Origin: Natronococcus sp. CG52
GTDB taxonomy: Archaea; Halobacteriota; Halobacteria; Halobacteriales; Natrialbaceae
NCBI RefSeq assembly: GCF_023913515.1
Contig: NZ_CP099391.1
Coordinates: forward strand, 3,286,001 to 3,350,000
Direction: 5' to 3'
Length of the DNA stretch: 64,000 nt
The position numbers and the translations under genes are program-made. How positions within the stretch are numbered: position 1 is the stretch's first letter; each line of letters opens with the position of its first letter. Below are positions 11,986 through 30,087 of this stretch, piece after piece. The notes below the pieces were generated by a model. The model was not told where the DNA came from. It ran no database searches and was given only the letters and a program-made list of their open reading frames with translations.

Positions 11986-13317
11986 ATGAAACGACGAACC
12001 TTCATTACGGCAAGTGGTGCATCGCTCGGAGCCCTCACGCTCGGCTCCGCGACGGCCGCGGCTGCTTCGACCGGCAGATTCCTCGTCGACCGCTCGAGCC
12101 TTCGGAACGAGGACGACGTCGAGATCGTTCACGAGCTATCGCCCGTCGACCTGCTCGTCGTCCGGGCATCGGAGTCGACGCTCGAGGGTGCGGGAGCGGC
12201 GTACGCGCCCGATATTCGAATCCGACCCGACGGCTACAGTCCGACCCGCCGGAGCCGTGTCGAGTACCCCGAGGAGGGAGCAGAACTGTTCGACTACCAG
12301 TGGGACAAACAGGACCAGGGCGTTCCGGACGCCCACGATATCACTCGCGGCGAAGGCACTCGCGTCGCGATTATCGATTCGGGAATCGCGGCGGGCCACC
12401 CCGACCTGGAGGGACAGGTCAACCTCGACCTCTCGAAGAGCTTCGCCGACGACGGGTACGGCGTCGGCGCGCCCTACAGCGGTACGCACGGGACCCACGT
12501 CGCGGGGATCGTCGGCGCGAGCGACGCGACCGATTCGGGCGTCGTCGGCTCCGCACCCGGCACGGAACTCGTCGACCTGCGCGTCTTCGGGGCCTCGCCC
12601 TCGAGCGTGGATCGCGGAGAGGTCCCGCCGACGTACTGGGGCGACACCTACATGGGAACGGTGCTGGCGGCGCTCGTGTACGCCGCCGAGATAGGCTGTG
12701 ACGCCGCCAATCTCAGCCTCGGCTGGACGTGGACGATGCGATCCGAGGGCTGGGGCAAGTTCTGGGGGAAGGCCCACCAGCGCATCGGACGGTACGCGAG
12801 CCGTCAGGGCACGCTCCACACTCACGCCTCCGGAAACTGGGGAGAGAGCCTCCAGTTCAACCGGGACGAAAAAGACTCCTCGGAAACCGCCGGCGGAATC
12901 ACGACGAGTTCCACGGGTCCCGTCGGGTTCGATCCCGAGACCGGCGAGTACGACGAGCCGCCGAACTCCCCGTCGGCGTACACGACCCACGGCGTCGGTG
13001 CGATCGATCTCGCGGCTCCCGGCGGGAAGGGCGGCGAATTCAGGTACGACAACGTCGTGAACGCGATCGCCATCCCGAATTTCGGCGAAGACGGCGAGTA
13101 TCAGGGTGCCGAGTACGGCTACGGCTGGCTGGCGGGCACTTCGATGGCAGCCCCGCAGGTCGCGGGCGCCGCCGCGCTCGTCAAGAGTGCCAACCAGCGG
13201 TACAACGCGAATCGGGTGAAAAACGCCCTGCAGCGGACCGCATCGGTCCCCGACGAGTACGAACGCAAGTACTACGGCCGCGGCTATCTCGACACCCTGG
13301 CCGCGGTGCAGGACTAG
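11986..13317 (+). CDS. Tat-exported subtilisin-like serine protease (halolysin type, S8)
   Basis: 443 aa. The Tat signal is MKRRTFITASGASLGALTLG, followed by an Ala-rich cleavage region near 23-28. A propeptide-like region runs to about 110. The catalytic triad is D131 in VAIIDSGIA, H171 in HGTHVAGI and S386 in GTSMAAPQVAGA; the oxyanion Asn is N284 in HASGNWG. There is no C-terminal PPC extension, so it is shorter than classical halolysins. It is expected outside the cell, secreted folded. Its stop codon lies inside repeat element A copy 2. Confidence 0.93.
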   Translation: MKRRTFITASGASLGALTLGSATAAAASTGRFLVDRSSLRNEDDVEIVHELSPVDLLVVRASESTLEGAGAAYAPDIRIRPDGYSPTRRSRVEYPEEGAELFDYQWDKQDQGVPDAHDITRGEGTRVAIIDSGIAAGHPDLEGQVNLDLSKSFADDGYGVGAPYSGTHGTHVAGIVGASDATDSGVVGSAPGTELVDLRVFGASPSSVDRGEVPPTYWGDTYMGTVLAALVYAAEIGCDAANLSLGWTWTMRSEGWGKFWGKAHQRIGRYASRQGTLHTHASGNWGESLQFNRDEKDSSETAGGITTSSTGPVGFDPETGEYDEPPNSPSAYTTHGVGAIDLAAPGGKGGEFRYDNVVNAIAIPNFGEDGEYQGAEYGYGWLAGTSMAAPQVAGAAALVKSANQRYNANRVKNALQRTASVPDEYERKYYGRGYLDTLAAVQD

Positions 13318-13439
13318 AGTAACAACTGAAGCGATCTACACACCGATCGTACTGTCCGCGGTTCTCGCTTGCTTCGCTCGCTCCGAACCGCGCCCCTGTC
13401 GTGCGATCGGATTCGCACTGACTTTCAGTGGCCACTATG
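13315..13439 (+). repeat. Inverted-repeat element family A, copy 2
   Basis: About 125 bp. The left end TAGAGTAACAACTGAAGCG supplies the TAG stop of the subtilase. The inner arms are CACACCGATCGTAC and GTGCGATCGG, and the right end is GACTTTCAGTGGCCACTAT. The core contains CCGCGGTTCTCGCTTGCTTC, the same core as copies 4 and 5 when all are aligned by their ends. Confidence 0.9.
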
Positions 13440-13815
13440 GAAAATTTGGATAGCGAGGAAGACACCGAGTATCTCACAACCTCGTTACCGATTCCGACAG
13501 CCTGGAGTGTGAGTGCGGATTCGCGGCGGATGCGGCCGATGAGCCGTCACAGGCTTCTCAGGCGATGCAAAACGGCAATCGTAGCCGGACTGATCGGCAT
13601 CTCGAGCAGGTCAATAACTACCCACCTCTCGATAAGCGGTGCGTGTTGACCGCCGCTGCGATACTGCTACTGAACCGCTCTGTGTGAGTGGTCGGATCGC
13701 CCTTCCAGAATCTACTACCGGGGTATCAACTTCTACTACGGGTCGTCGCCCTCATTGACGGCGGCGGTGACCACTGAGAGACACACCAGGCGAAGAGAGT
13801 CGTTGCAGACGTTTT
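13440..13815. other. Gene-poor interval
   Basis: No frame here has recognisable domains or haloarchaeal codon bias. The composition is less GC-rich than neighbouring genes. It probably holds decayed sequence. Confidence 0.5.
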
Positions 13816-16012: not shown

Positions 16013-17275
16013 TTATTCGTTGACCTCGAGGACCTTGCCAGCTGCGATGGTCTGACCCATGTCGCGGATGGCGAAGCTCCCGAGTTCGGGGATCTTGCTG
16101 GACGGTTCGATGCTGAGGGGCTTCTGAGGTCGGATGGTGACCACAGCAGCGTCACCCGACTGGATGAAGTCGGGGTTCTCCTCCGCGACCTCGCCGCTTG
16201 CGGGGTCCATCTTTTTGTCGATGGATTCGATCGTACACGCGACCTGTGCCGTGTGGGCGTGGAAGACCGGCGTGTATCCGGCGGTGATGACCGAGGGGTG
16301 CTGCATGACGACGATCTGCGCCTGGAACGTCTCGGCGACGCTTGGCGGGTCGTCCGCAGGACCACAGACGTCACCACGGCGGATGTCGTCCTTACCGATG
16401 CCGCGGACGTTGAATCCGACGTTGTCACCTGGTTCGGCCTTGGGCACCTCTTCGTGGTGCATCTCGATCGTCTTCACTTCGCCGCCCACGTCGCTGGGCT
16501 GGAAGGAGACGTTGTCGCCGATGTTCATGATACCGGTCTCGATACGTCCGACTGGGACGGTACCGATGCCGGAGATCGTGTAAACGTCCTGAATCGGGAG
16601 TCGGAGCGGTGCGTCCGTCGGCGGCTCCGGCTCCGGCAGGGCGTTCAGGGCATCGAGCAGGGTTTCGCCGTCGTACCACGACGTGTTGTCGGAGGCCTCG
16701 GCGATGTTGTCGCCCTCGAAGGCCGAGATCGGGATGAACGAGGCGTCGTCGGTCTGGAACTGAACCTGCTTGAGCAGCTGGTTGACTTCCTCGACGACCT
16801 CGTCGAAGGTGTCCTGCTTGTAGTCGACGACGTCCATCTTGTTGATGCCGATGATGAGTTCGTCGATACCCAGCGTGCGGGCCAGGAAGACGTGCTCCTG
16901 GGTCTGGGGTGCGACGCCGTCGTCAGCGGCGACGACGAGGACGGCGTTGTCGGCCTGGCTCGCGCCAGTGATCATGTTCTTGACGAAGTCGCGGTGACCA
17001 GGACAGTCGACGATAGTAAACTCGTACTCGTCGGTCGAGAACTCCTGGTGGGCGATGTCGATGGTGACACCGCGTTCGCGCTCCTCGGCGAGGTTGTCCA
17101 TGACGTAGGCGAACTCGAAGCCGCCTTTGCCCTTCTCTTCGGCTTCCTCGCGGTGCTGTTCGATGACGTGCTCCGGCACGCTCCCCGTCTCGTAGAGGAG
17201 GCGTCCCACGAGCGTGCTCTTCCCGTGGTCAACGTGGCCGATGATGGCCAGGTTCTGGTGTCGTTTGTCGCTCAT
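16013..17275 (-). CDS. tuf: Translation elongation factor EF-1 alpha
   Basis: 420-aa GTPase that delivers aminoacyl-tRNA to the ribosome. G motifs: G1 GHVDHGKST at about 13-21, G2 around [13 protein letters not shown]3 DCPGHRDF, G4 NKMD, with domains 2 and 3 complete to the ...[10 protein letters not shown] end. The start is [18 protein letters not shown]. It is co-directional with rpsJ immediately downstream. Confidence 0.98.
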
Positions 17276-17495: not shown

Positions 17496-17622
17496 CTATA
17501 GCAACAACTGAAACGATTTACACACCGATCGCACGACGGGAGCGCGGGTCGGAGCGAGCGAAGCAAGCGAGAACCGCGGACAGTGCGATCGGGTGTGCAG
17601 TGACTTTCAGTGGCTACTATAG
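17496..17622 (+). repeat. Inverted-repeat element family A, copy 3 (core inverted)
   Basis: 127 bp from CTATAGCAACAACTGAAACG to GACTTTCAGTGGCTACTATAG; both ends carry CTATAG. The core CGACGGGAGCGCGGGTCGGA...AGCGAGAACCGCGGACAG is in the opposite orientation, relative to the ends, from copies 2, 4 and 5. It lies 17 nt beyond the homoserine dehydrogenase stop and upstream of the tuf promoter. Confidence 0.9.
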
Positions 17623-17639
17623 CACCGAACGAGATCGAA

Positions 17640-18587
17640 CTACCGTTCCGGGAGTCGTCCGACGTCGGACAGCACCGCCGTTGCCGTCTCCGGACCGCCC
17701 GCGCCGCGGCCGCTGTTGTGGAGGCTGCCGGCGTGTTTCGTCTCGATCTGGACGATGTTGCGCGTCCCCGTCACCGCGAGTGCGCCGTTTTCGGGAACGA
17801 GACGGGGACCGACGCGAATGCCCTCTCGAGACGCTTCGCCGATGAGCCGGATCGTGCGGCCGTCCTCGGCGGCGAGATCGAGCGCGCTACCGGGAATGTT
17901 CTGGATCCCCTCGACGGTCGCATCCTCGAGCGAGAAGCCGCCGTCGGCCAGCACGTTCGCGAGGATGACGAACTTGAGCGCGGCGTCGGTGCCGTCGACG
18001 TCGAACGTCGGGTCGGCCTCCGCGACGCCGAGATCCTGGGCTTCGGCGAGGACGTGTTCGTAGTCGAGTCCCTCGGCGGCCATCCGCGTGAGGATGAAGT
18101 TCGCGGTCCCGTTGAGGACGCCCCGAACCGCGGTGACCGCCTGCGGCGTCGAGTCCTCGACGGTCGAGAGCACGGGAATCGCGCCGCCGACGGTCGCCTC
18201 GAACCGGATCGAACCCTCGCTCTCGGCCTCGAGTGCTCGCAGTTCCTCGTAGCGCTCGGCGACCGGCCCCTTGTTCGCCAGCACGACGTGGTGGTCGGTC
18301 TCGAGTGCGCGTTTCACGTGCGTAAAGCCCGGTTCGGCGTCGCCGAGCGTCGTCGGCGTCGCCTCCACGAGGACGTCGTAGGCGGTCTCGAAGACCGCTG
18401 CGGGGTCGTCCGGACCGAGGGGATCGCCGCCGAGTTTGCGCTCGAGCGCCCGATCGACGTCGATGCCGTCGGGATCGATCGCGGCGTCGCTCGAGTCGGC
18501 CAGCGCGACGACGTCGTGGCCGTACTCGCCGGCGAGGTCGGCGACCGAGCGTCCGACGTCACCGGCACCGAGGATCGCGAGACGCAT
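17640..18587 (-). CDS. hom: Homoserine dehydrogenase
   Basis: Reduces aspartate semialdehyde to homoserine on the way to threonine and methionine. 315 aa: Rossmann GAGDVGRSVADLA at 7-19, ATPTTLGDAEPGFTH, VVLANKGPVA, then the catalytic domain with GVLNGTANFILTRM, and EADPTFDVDGTDAALKFVILAN. There is no ACT domain inside the protein. That role is probably filled by the gene directly upstream, whose stop overlaps this start by one nucleotide (TGATG). Confidence 0.95.
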   Translation of the reverse strand: MRLAILGAGDVGRSVADLAGEYGHDVVALADSSDAAIDPDGIDVDRALERKLGGDPLGPDDPAAVFETAYDVLVEATPTTLGDAEPGFTHVKRALETDHHVVLANKGPVAERYEELRALEAESEGSIRFEATVGGAIPVLSTVEDSTPQAVTAVRGVLNGTANFILTRMAAEGLDYEHVLAEAQDLGVAEADPTFDVDGTDAALKFVILANVLADGGFSLEDATVEGIQNIPGSALDLAAEDGRTIRLIGEASREGIRVGPRLVPENGALAVTGTRNIVQIETKHAGSLHNSGRGAGGPETATAVLSDVGRLPER

Positions 18588-22324: not shown

Positions 22325-22774
22325 ATGGCTACCGACCAGCACGGGACCGAGACAGAACCGGGGGCCGCGCTCACCGAGGCGGAACTCGAGGCGCTTCACG
22401 AGGTCGAACTCGGACTCGAGTGGCTCCAGCGCGCACAGGGCAATCTCCTCGAGTTCCATCACGCGACGGGCCACGGGATGGACCACCTCTACGAGGCCGA
22501 AGCGCTGCTCTACGACACCGGCCACGAGGCGCTGGCGGATGCGATTCGGACGGAGCTACTGCCCTACGGCGTCGTCGACGGCGATCGATGGTCCTACGAC
22601 GTCCTCGAGAACTTCCAGGAAACGCTGCTGGCCGAGACGGTGCGCTTCGAGCGCCGCGCTCGCCGCGAACTGGCGGACGGACACCGTCACGTCCGCGAAC
22701 GACGGCAGGAACGAACGTGGAAGGAACAGGCGGAACGCTCCCGGCGAAGCAGTGACGAGGATAGTACCAACTAA
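22325..22774 (+). CDS. Conserved haloarchaeal alpha-helical protein
   Basis: 149 aa, charged and helical throughout (LTEAELEALHEVELGLEWLQ; FHHATGHGMDHLYEAEALLY). His-rich HHATGHGMDH could bind metal. No family is named with confidence. The last codons, GAT AGT ACC AAC TAA, are formed by the left end of repeat element A copy 4, so the present C-terminus is set by that element. Confidence 0.75.
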   Translation: MATDQHGTETEPGAALTEAELEALHEVELGLEWLQRAQGNLLEFHHATGHGMDHLYEAEALLYDTGHEALADAIRTELLPYGVVDGDRWSYDVLENFQETLLAETVRFERRARRELADGHRHVRERRQERTWKEQAERSRRSSDEDSTN

Positions 22775-22881
22775 AACGGTTTCCACACCGATCGTACGGA
22801 CCGCGGTTCTCGCCCGTCGGACTCCGACCCGCGCACCCGTCGTGCGATCGGGCGTGCGCTGACTTTCGGCGGCTACGATAG
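22761..22881 (+). repeat. Inverted-repeat element family A, copy 4
   Basis: 121 bp from ATAGTACCAACTAAAACGG to GACTTTCGGCGGCTACGATAG. It supplies the stop of the gene on its left and abuts the TAG stop of the Usp gene on its right (22882). The core GACCGCGGTTCTCGCCCGTC has the same orientation as copy 2. It lies between convergent genes. Confidence 0.88.
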
Positions 22882-23337
22882 CTACTCCCCGCTCCGGACG
22901 AACGTCACCGGGCAGGGCGAGGAGAGCAGGACCTCCTGTGCGGTCGAACCGAAGACCGCCTTTCCGGTCGGCGAGCGACGGCGACCGCCGACGACGACCC
23001 GATCGGCGGCGACCCCGGTTGCGAGATCGACGATCGTCGGCCCGTGGTCGCCGATCGCGCCGCGAACGTCGTACTCGATTCCCTCCTCGTCGAGTTCGCT
23101 CCGGAGGTCCCGGATCGTCGAGTGGCGAGACGCGACCTCGTCGGGGCGGATCTGGTCGCTGTCGGCGTCCATGTCGAGGTTCCCGAGCACTTCGTTGTAC
23201 TCGTCTTCGGTGAAGACGTGAGCGAGAACGACCGTCGCGTCGGACGGTTTGGCCACCTCGAGGACCGTTTCGGCGAGTTTGTCGGTACGGTCGGCGTCGC
23301 CGGGCCCGACGGCGAGCAGGATCGTCTTGAGAGTCAT
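22882..23337 (-). CDS. Universal stress protein, UspA family
   Basis: 151 aa. The N-terminal strand TLKTILLAVGPGD and the ATP-binding signature VVGGRRRSPTGKAVFGSTAQ (G2xG9GS pattern) followed by VLLSSPCPVTFV mark an ATP-binding Usp. It is a soluble dimer expected to respond to stress; no partner is visible. Its stop codon touches repeat element A copy 4. Confidence 0.93.
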   Translation of the reverse strand: MTLKTILLAVGPGDADRTDKLAETVLEVAKPSDATVVLAHVFTEDEYNEVLGNLDMDADSDQIRPDEVASRHSTIRDLRSELDEEGIEYDVRGAIGDHGPTIVDLATGVAADRVVVGGRRRSPTGKAVFGSTAQEVLLSSPCPVTFVRSGE

Positions 23338-23513: not shown

Positions 23514-24254
23514 ATGAACGAACTCGACCTCTCGAACCGAACCGTGCTCGTCACGGGCAGCGCCAGGGGTGTCGGCCGCGAACTCCTGCTCGCGACCGCC
23601 GACTGCGGAGCGAGCGCGGCCGTCCACTACCACACCAGCGCGGACGCCGCCCGCGACGTCGCCGACGAAGCGCGCGAGCGCGGCGCGGCGGACGTGATGA
23701 CCGTCCAGGGCGACGTCACCGATCCGGAGAGCGTCGACGGCGTCTTCGCGGCCGTCGAGGCCGAACTCGGCTCCGTCGACGTCCTCGTGAACAACGTCGG
23801 CGACTTCGCGCCCGATCACTGGGCCGAGATCGAGTTCGAGACCTGGAATCGGGTGCTCGAGACCAACCTCAACGGCACCTACCTCTGTTCGAAACGCGCC
23901 CTGCCGGCGATGCGCGAGGGGGAGTTCGGCCGGATCGTCAACGTCGGCTACGCCTCGAGCGAGAAGGGGCTGGTGAACCCGACGAACTTCCCGTACTTCG
24001 TGGCGAAAGCGGGCGTACTCATGTTCACGCGGATGCTCGCGGCCGACACGCGGGACGACGGGATCACGGTCAACGCCATCTCGCCGTACGTCGTCGAGAA
24101 CTCCGACGAGTTCCCCGAGGAACTCCCCCGGGATCGACCTGCCTCGTTCGAGGACCTGATCAATCCGCTGCTGTTCTTCCTCGATCCCGACAGCGGGTAC
24201 GTCAGCGGGGAGAACGTGGAGGTCGACGGCGGGTGGTTGCCCGAGACGGTGTGA
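23514..24254 (+). CDS. Short-chain dehydrogenase/reductase (FabG-like)
   Basis: 246-aa NAD(P)-dependent oxidoreductase. Cofactor motif TGSARGVGRE at 14-23; NNVG at 93-96; catalytic Ser148 or Ser149 with Tyr161 and Lys165 in YFVAKAG; C-terminal VSGENVEVDGGWLPE. The YFVAK spacing matches classical SDRs. Resemblance is to 3-oxoacyl reductases, but the substrate is not predictable. A likely leaderless promoter with an inverted repeat lies upstream. Its last 44 coding bases are duplicated 185 bp downstream. Confidence 0.92.
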   Translation: MNELDLSNRTVLVTGSARGVGRELLLATADCGASAAVHYHTSADAARDVADEARERGAADVMTVQGDVTDPESVDGVFAAVEAELGSVDVLVNNVGDFAPDHWAEIEFETWNRVLETNLNGTYLCSKRALPAMREGEFGRIVNVGYASSEKGLVNPTNFPYFVAKAGVLMFTRMLAADTRDDGITVNAISPYVVENSDEFPEELPRDRPASFEDLINPLLFFLDPDSGYVSGENVEVDGGWLPETV

Positions 24255-24453
24255 GCCGGTACGAGCGGTCGGACCGCGGCGCGTCGCGCCGCGGGATGTT
24301 TTTGGTCCAGATTTTTCCGAGGAGCGGGTCTCGAGCGGTGCGCGGCGCTTGCGCCGAGCGAGCGAGAGGCCTCGACGAAGTAAAAAGGTGGGTGCAGAAC
24401 GTGGAGGTCGACGGCGGGTGGTTGCCCGAGACGGTGTGAGCCGGTACGAGCGG
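24211..24453 (+). repeat. Direct repeat of the SDR 3' end
   Basis: Bases 24211-24268 recur without mismatch at 24396-24453, and the match continues with one mismatch to 24277/24462. The first copy is the end of the SDR gene plus its stop; the second is the same stretch in non-coding DNA. The period is 185 bp. The spacer holds GC-rich hairpins and an AGTAAAAAGG stretch. Confidence 0.9.
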
Positions 24454-24555
24454 ACGGACCGCAACGGACCGTCTCGTGTTGCGCGGACTCGAGCGCGAGA
24501 TAACTCCGCGGACGAAAGGCATCACGAGTCGATTACAGCGGCGGGAACGGCGCGG

Positions 24556-29933: not shown

Positions 29934-30059
29934 TATAGTAGCTACTGAAAGTCAATGCACACTCGATCGCGCGACGGGAGCGCGGTTCGGAGCCAGCGAA
30001 GCAAGCGAGAACCGCGGACAGTGCGATCGGCGTGTAAATCGTTTCAGTTGGTACTATAG
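29934..30059 (-). repeat. Inverted-repeat element family A, copy 5 (opposite orientation)
   Basis: 126 bp from TATAGTAGCTACTGAAAGTCA to GTTTCAGTTGGTACTATAG; the two ends are swapped relative to copies 1-4. The core CGACGGGAGCGCGGTTCGGA...AGCGAGAACCGCGGACAG is nearly identical to that of copy 3. The element lies 28 nt past the stop of the DUF5789-type gene on its right. Confidence 0.9.
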
Positions 30060-30087
30060 GGAGACGGTGTCGCTCGATCCGACGCAC

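Follow-up and report, generated by a model that had tools for sequence, protein, structure and literature searches.

Cores of a dispersed haloarchaeal fold-back repeat lie in both orientations between unturned arms

The stretch of DNA analysed here (64 kb, G000:C1:3286001–3350000, hereafter the window) is part of the 4.74-Mb genome of a Natronococcus strain (G000, the own genome). Copies of a short repeat are scattered through it, and one of these, copy 3, occupies the gap between the genes for EF-1 alpha and homoserine dehydrogenase. Window positions are as follows.

About 1709 to 1835, + strand: copy 1, with the same arms and a different 47-nt core (window repeat comparison)
13314 to 13440, + strand: copy 2, standard core (window repeat comparison and genome parse)
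16013 to 17275, − strand: EF-1 alpha gene, context only (PF00009, 1e-62; 220 nt from copy 3)
17496 to 17622, + strand: copy 3, whole element (within-window repeat comparison)
17496 to 17531, + strand: left arm of copy 3 (CTATAGCAACAACTGAAACGATTTACACACCGATCG), with the same type on the left in copies 2, 4 and 5
17532 to 17585, − strand: 54-nt core of copy 3, the standard core as read on the − strand, turned with respect to its arms (inverted match to copy 2, 94%)
17543 to 17578 (G000:C1:3303543–3303578), no strand: inner hairpin of copy 3 (CGCGGGT...AACCGCG)
17586 to 17622, + strand: right arm of copy 3 (shared direct-repeat family of the window)
17640 to 18587, − strand: homoserine dehydrogenase gene, context only (PF00742, 4.9e-51; its stop 17 nt from copy 3)
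22760 to 22886, + strand: copy 4, standard polarity and a variant core, GGACCGCGG... (window repeat comparison and genome parse)
29935 to 30060, − strand (the element lies on this strand): copy 5, standard core (inverted match and genome parse)

Two other repeats were seen in the window. The EF-1 alpha gene has 170 bases at its 5′ end (17100–17269) that recur at G000:C1:683436–683605 with 99% identity, and the same stretch is found, at 89% identity, in a single place each in G004 and G008; the recurrence points to another EF-1 alpha-like gene, or a fragment of one, that has perhaps been homogenised. A 67-base direct repeat (24211–24277 and 24396–24462) has copies that are 99% identical and 185 bases apart.

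A chance origin of the repeat is ruled out by the number of matches to CTGTCCGCGGTTCTCGC: with up to three mismatches there are six in the window against 1.11 expected, a count reached by none of 100 shuffles. Exact matches lie at 13352 on the + strand (copy 2), at 17567 on the − strand (copy 3) and at 30005 on the − strand (copy 5, itself a − strand element), and a match with two mismatches lies at 22797 on the + strand (copy 4). Read inward from the left arm, copies 2 and 5 show ACTGTCCGCGG...TGTCGTG or CCGTCGCG, copy 4 shows ACGGACCGCGG...CCGTCGTG and copy 3 shows CACGACGGGAGCGCGG...CCGCGGACAGTG. Copy 3 therefore holds, as the sequence-only reading had stated, its core as the reverse complement of the one found in copies 2, 4 and 5, allowing in copy 4 for the variant core. 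The arms of copy 3 are unturned, its left side being of the left-arm type (ACTGAAACGATTTACACACC-GATCG) and its right side of the right-arm type (CGATCGGGTGTGCAGTGACTTTCAGTGG), the layout of the other copies. Because several differences, including one indel, distinguish the left arm (ACTGAAACGRTTTMCACACC-GATCG) from the right arm (CGATCGGGTGTGCAYTGACTTTCAGTGG), the ends can be oriented without reference to the core. Perfect arms of 10 bp, CCGATCGCAC/GTGCGATCGG, bound the flipped segment and contain the edges of the flip, since the arm differences just beyond them are unswapped. Copy 3 is predicted to form a stem–loop more stable than 200 of 200 shuffles (z −3.79); for the G006 element discussed below the predicted value is z −2.57. 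A known RNA family was rejected as the identity of the repeat, there being no Rfam 15 match to it above the gathering score; positions 1–31000 of the window gave just one tRNA.

Copy 3 is a member of a large family. The left-arm pattern matched the own genome 121 times, as compared with three times for the reversed control, and 80 copies were parsed there: short, non-coding, multicopy elements with terminal inverted arms, in forms of 83 and 124 nt as clipped. The two forms have their arms in common, an asymmetric near-complementary pair that encloses either a 7-nt loop, usually AGCCGTC in the + orientation (short form), or, in place of this loop, a nested second hairpin, CTGTCCGCGGTT-[CTCGCTTGCTTCGCTCGCTCCG]-AACCGCGCTCCCGTCG (long form). 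In Natronococcus pandeyae LS1_42 (G004) the long core is expanded up to 204 nt at loci L154–L248 (for example L169 and L219) by internal repeats, CGGTTCTCACTCACTTCGTTCG and CGTTCCGAACCGCG among them, and copies of the inner hairpin also occur outside the repeat arms, as at G000:C1:359162. A pattern scan found the short form in 75 of 125 genomes and 18 of 29 genera of the source family, with no control match among the matches listed; a stricter pattern gave exact matches in 74 stretches, including ones from Haloarcula, Halomicrobium and Halostella. A first parse by best-match regular expression (164 elements) passed over weaker copies, copy 2 among them; the genome-wide parse, a plain mismatch scan, gave 167 elements in eight Natronococcus genomes.

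Two observations on duplication of the repeat with its surroundings may be recorded here. On contig G000:C2, two copies are each found again 357,260 bases further on (4904/11682 and 362164/368942), which suggests either that the contig ends (∼1–35,700 and 357,260–392,952) are the untrimmed overlap of a circular replicon or that they form a true repeat of at most 35 kb. At L363 and L328, two elements with identical flanks lie within one locus, a short tandem duplication that includes the repeat.

Insertion takes place at TA, mostly in CTAG: in the first parse of 164 elements, C precedes TATAGTA at 71 of 93 readable ends and G follows TACTATA at 70 of 96. CTAG occurs 18 times in the window, as compared with 202 expected from base composition. 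Empty sites (CGGACCTAGTTCGTGT, TCGTTCTAGGGACAGG) were set against filled sites of the form ..CTA[TAGTA..TACTATA]G.., with a clear counterpart in two of eight comparisons. Two empty sites in Natronococcus amylolyticus DSM 10524 (G001) read CCTAG and TCTAG where G006 has CTA[TAGTA...TACTATA]G, and TA is therefore duplicated on insertion; the empty site of another insertion in G005 agrees with this except at one base. These haloarchaeal fold-back repeats form a MITE-like family, whose target site points to a putative place among elements of the IS630/Tc1/mariner type. It resembles MITEs of that type in TA duplication, CTAG preference, terminal inverted arms and the lack of a gene (PMC2170065), IS630 itself preferring TA in CTAG (Tenzen and Ohtsubo, 1991, cited in PMC2170065). 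It differs in that the 30 IS630-type (PF13358) loci examined from the genus yielded no transposase gene with the same ends: none has a matching end pair and four have a single weak end match, and these genes were rejected as its partner.

The segment enclosed by the arms exists in both orientations, and does so at two nested levels. Among the 42 own-genome cores of 40–56 nt, a set to which the 47-nt cores do not belong, 33 are standard, four are wholly flipped (L001, which is copy 3, L002, L003 and L005) and five are flipped in the inner hairpin only (L006, L023, L025, L030 and L047); a sixth inner flip was read by eye in the truncated copy L422. Scored against its own ends in this way, the flip of copy 3 is not unique, and the arrangement described earlier, in which the outer arms keep their orientation and just the interior of the nested inverted arms is turned, recurs. 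By form, the long copies of the own genome are 42 +, 4 − and 1 unclear, and the short copies 15 +, 13 − and 5 unclear, the 7-nt loop thus being flipped in 13 of 28 scorable copies. Both polarities are also found in G004 (short, 15 + and 6 −; long, 16 + and 5 −) and among the parsed copies of G006 (15 + and 1 −), and only + copies were parsed in G001 (12), G002 (8), G005 (5), G003 (2) and G007 (2).

A scan of named records, with 76 matches, gave 67 +, 8 − and 1 unclear. The eight flipped matches lie at seven sites, Natrinema limicola and N. hispanicum having one in common, and come by record title from five genera: Haloarcula, Natrinema, Natrarchaeobius, Haloterrigena and Natronococcus. Loops of the type found locally are what is flipped. 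In Haloarcula, the flipped loop GACAGCA corresponds to TGCTGTC, its reverse complement and the T-type loop of Haloarcula and Halomicrobium loci, and flips have therefore arisen more than once. Likewise, GATGGCT of Natronococcus pandeyae is the reverse complement of AGCCATC. At a Natrinema locus with the flipped loop GACGACT, the two other genomes that have the locus lack the element, and the locus therefore gives no first orientation.

Comparison of orthologous insertions revealed one flip in place. A single insertion is common to G001 (L202), G006 (L233) and G007 (L194), and the site is empty in G005. Read from the left arm, G001 and G007 both have AGCCGTC as the loop, and G006 has GACGGCT; arms and flanks have the same orientation, and the G001 and G006 flanks are 96% and 96% identical. 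The 7-nt loop has thus been flipped in place at one orthologous insertion between sister species, which bears out the proposal of the sequence-only reading that the middle flips between nested arms. The left arm of the G006 element is that of its own orthologues, and its right arm carries a cluster of substitutions beside the loop. Because the commonest loop of G006 also yields GACGGCT when reverse-complemented, a loop turned on the spot and a loop imported from another copy would look alike.

At the nine other orthologous short sites polarity is constant (L260/L244, L189/L232, L253/L235, L196/L193, L279/L367, L294/L295, L298/L328, L444/L447 and L316/L356, the last being a locus 100% identical in G066 and G067), and there is therefore no fast switch; several of these pairs are very close relatives, with little time for flipping. 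Orientation is nearly fixed by locus, the pattern that the sequence-only reading had held would tell against it, save for the one in-place flip.

Five sites at which at least one genome has a long core could be compared between the own genome and G004. At L110/L169 core and polarity are both kept. At L066/L248 polarity and form both differ (short + as compared with long −), at L086/L171 core type alone differs (long as compared with short), and the same is true of window copy 4 and L212. At L045/L218 the whole element is turned, arms included, and the core is also different, which could reflect inversion of the whole element or two separate insertions. As orthologous sites hold different cores, cores seem to be exchanged between dispersed copies as well as turned. 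The gap that holds copy 3 has a counterpart in G004, where copy L132, of the same flipped polarity, lies between the same two genes. The pair is not counted among orthologous sites because ∼100 nt next to the element cannot be aligned with the copy 3 locus and G004 has an extra gene. No copy of the repeat was found in this gap in G001, G002, G003, G005, G006 or G008.

A spacer of 7 nt is too short for a recombinase to bring two duplex arms together. Since a polymerase can turn spacers as short as this, we prefer template switching, or strand exchange within the hairpin, as the source of the flips, and favour with moderate confidence a slow inversion of the spacer between the innermost perfect arms, combined with exchange of cores between copies. 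During replication or repair, pairing would take place between the innermost perfect arms, which measure 10 bp around the loop or core and 7–8 bp around the inner hairpin; the growing strand would then cross the hairpin to a new template, or strands would be exchanged between the arms, and the spacer would be copied backwards while the outer arms stayed in place. Flips of this kind would be slow, core exchange between dispersed copies may spread flipped cores or itself create them, and some flipped copies may have spread later. Copy 3 would owe its core to the same process by analogy. Template switching between short inverted repeats is reported to give spacer inversion (PMC8604942), and loop inversions in hairpins of rRNA genes, with loops of 7–8 nt among the cases, are reported from Bacteria as well (PMC8794818). 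In G006 as compared with G001 and G007, the spacer is an exact reverse complement and the arms are in place, which is the pattern by which a loop inversion is recognized.

Several observations weigh against in-place inversion. Just one flip in place occurs among ten orthologous short sites, and the related copy L132 has the polarity of copy 3. Furthermore, template switching should also homogenise the arms, and the own genome shows no excess of matching double changes in them (7 as compared with a shuffled mean of 5.06; 227 of 1000 shuffles as high); in that genome arm homogenisation lends template switching no support. The other sets do show an excess: over all 155 copies of the first parse, on which these counts were made, there are 33 such changes against 15.15 (0 of 1000 as high), much of this coming from one subfamily position. 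Similarity between left and right arms in the own genome gave r 0.184 in the parse of 167 elements (78 of 2000 shuffles as high), and was stronger in the first parse (r 0.246; 11 of 2000).

The main rival is ectopic gene conversion. The arms are near-palindromic, so that copies could align either way round and half of all conversions would import a core backwards. Flips and core swaps would then follow from one process, and the different cores at L066/L248, L086/L171, copy 4/L212 and the turned L045/L218 are what it predicts. Distance tests and a tree of the arms, made with the 161 of 167 copies that have clear polarity and uncut ends, bear on the same question. Core form in the own genome ignores the arm tree (23 changes as compared with a shuffled mean of 22.6), as conversion would have it. 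In favour of in-place inversion, polarity does not follow the tree either (27 changes, mean 26.9; 306 of 500 shuffles as low), whereas genome of origin does (57 changes as compared with 77.7; 0 of 500 as low). Polarity therefore appears not to cluster by arm lineage, a weak indication given the short alignment (76 columns) and a weak tree (an earlier version had none of 151 inner branches starred). In G004, core form goes slightly with the arms (r 0.075; 2 of 2000 as high), which argues against entirely unrestricted exchange of cores there. Free two-way conversion should moreover have evened out the long cores of the own genome, which stand at 42 to 4; just one of 16 parsed G006 copies is flipped, and that copy, L233, has kept the left arm of its orthologues. 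Conversion from a backwards-aligned copy may act too, and as the explanation of the flips we regard it as rather unlikely.

Flipping during transposition, through a hairpin or cruciform intermediate, with each inserted copy then keeping its polarity, is less probable still. It would account for constant polarity at nine of ten sites, and for flipped copies being common in two genomes, the own genome and G004, and missing from the parsed sets of G001 and G002. Nevertheless, the insertion common to G001, G006 and G007, empty in G005, differs in polarity among its descendants, and the double-strand cut and paste by which TA-duplicating elements of the IS630 kind transpose (ISY100; PMC2170065) would offer no obvious route to loop inversion. 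The hairpin-resolved transposition product suggested earlier is thus unneeded for the in-place case and may apply to copy 3. The same suggestion had named an invertible switch, here a recombinase-worked one through which copy 3 would control the adjoining genes. Inverted arms around a reversible segment, set between the homoserine dehydrogenase and EF-1 alpha genes, do invite the idea, and we consider it highly improbable: the spacers measure 7 to 54 nt, polarity is nearly fixed per site, flips occur at two nested levels with different arms, no switch function was seen, and orientation, which a switch should change frequently between close relatives, differs at just one of ten orthologous short sites.

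Among known systems, template-switch spacer inversion (PMC8794818, PMC8604942) likewise turns in place a segment between short perfect arms; in contrast, the repeat described here is dispersed, mobile and archaeal, and is flipped at two nested levels in a sizeable share of copies. Chloroplast hairpin inversions of 5–50 bp with arms of 11–24 bp (Kim and Lee, 2005, in PMC12928735) are similar in spacer length, arm length and recurrent change of orientation, but concern single-copy organelle spacers rather than a transposed family. The nearest haloarchaeal account is that of the small mobile repeats (SMRs) and MITEs of Haloquadratum walsbyi (PMC3119063), which are also 80–110 bp long, with inverted ends and many copies. 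For the SMRs, however, the portion of that account considered here reports no target duplication and relates A-type hits to PATE/IS605 elements, and core inversion is not mentioned in it. A search of titles and abstracts in the open-access literature, a scope outside which most subscription papers fall, found, among the matches listed, no report of this repeat family or of core inversion in an archaeal MITE.

We put forward tentatively, and with some doubt, the broader reading that in this haloarchaeal MITE family the nested hairpin cores are turned and exchanged without their arms, by in-place inversion together with exchange between copies, with flipped cores being spread by transposition; its many copies across genera would then preserve a natural record of template switching in archaea. 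So far, loop inversion by template switching has been inferred mostly from single loci or from rRNA genes. Dozens of archaeal genomes hold near-identical hairpins of this family, whose polarity can be read against asymmetric arms. These hairpins amount to many parallel trials of one event, and the family would allow the rate of loop inversion, its dependence on arm length and the repair genes involved to be measured in archaea. In the classification of such repeats, subfamilies are poorly marked by the orientation or the type of the core.
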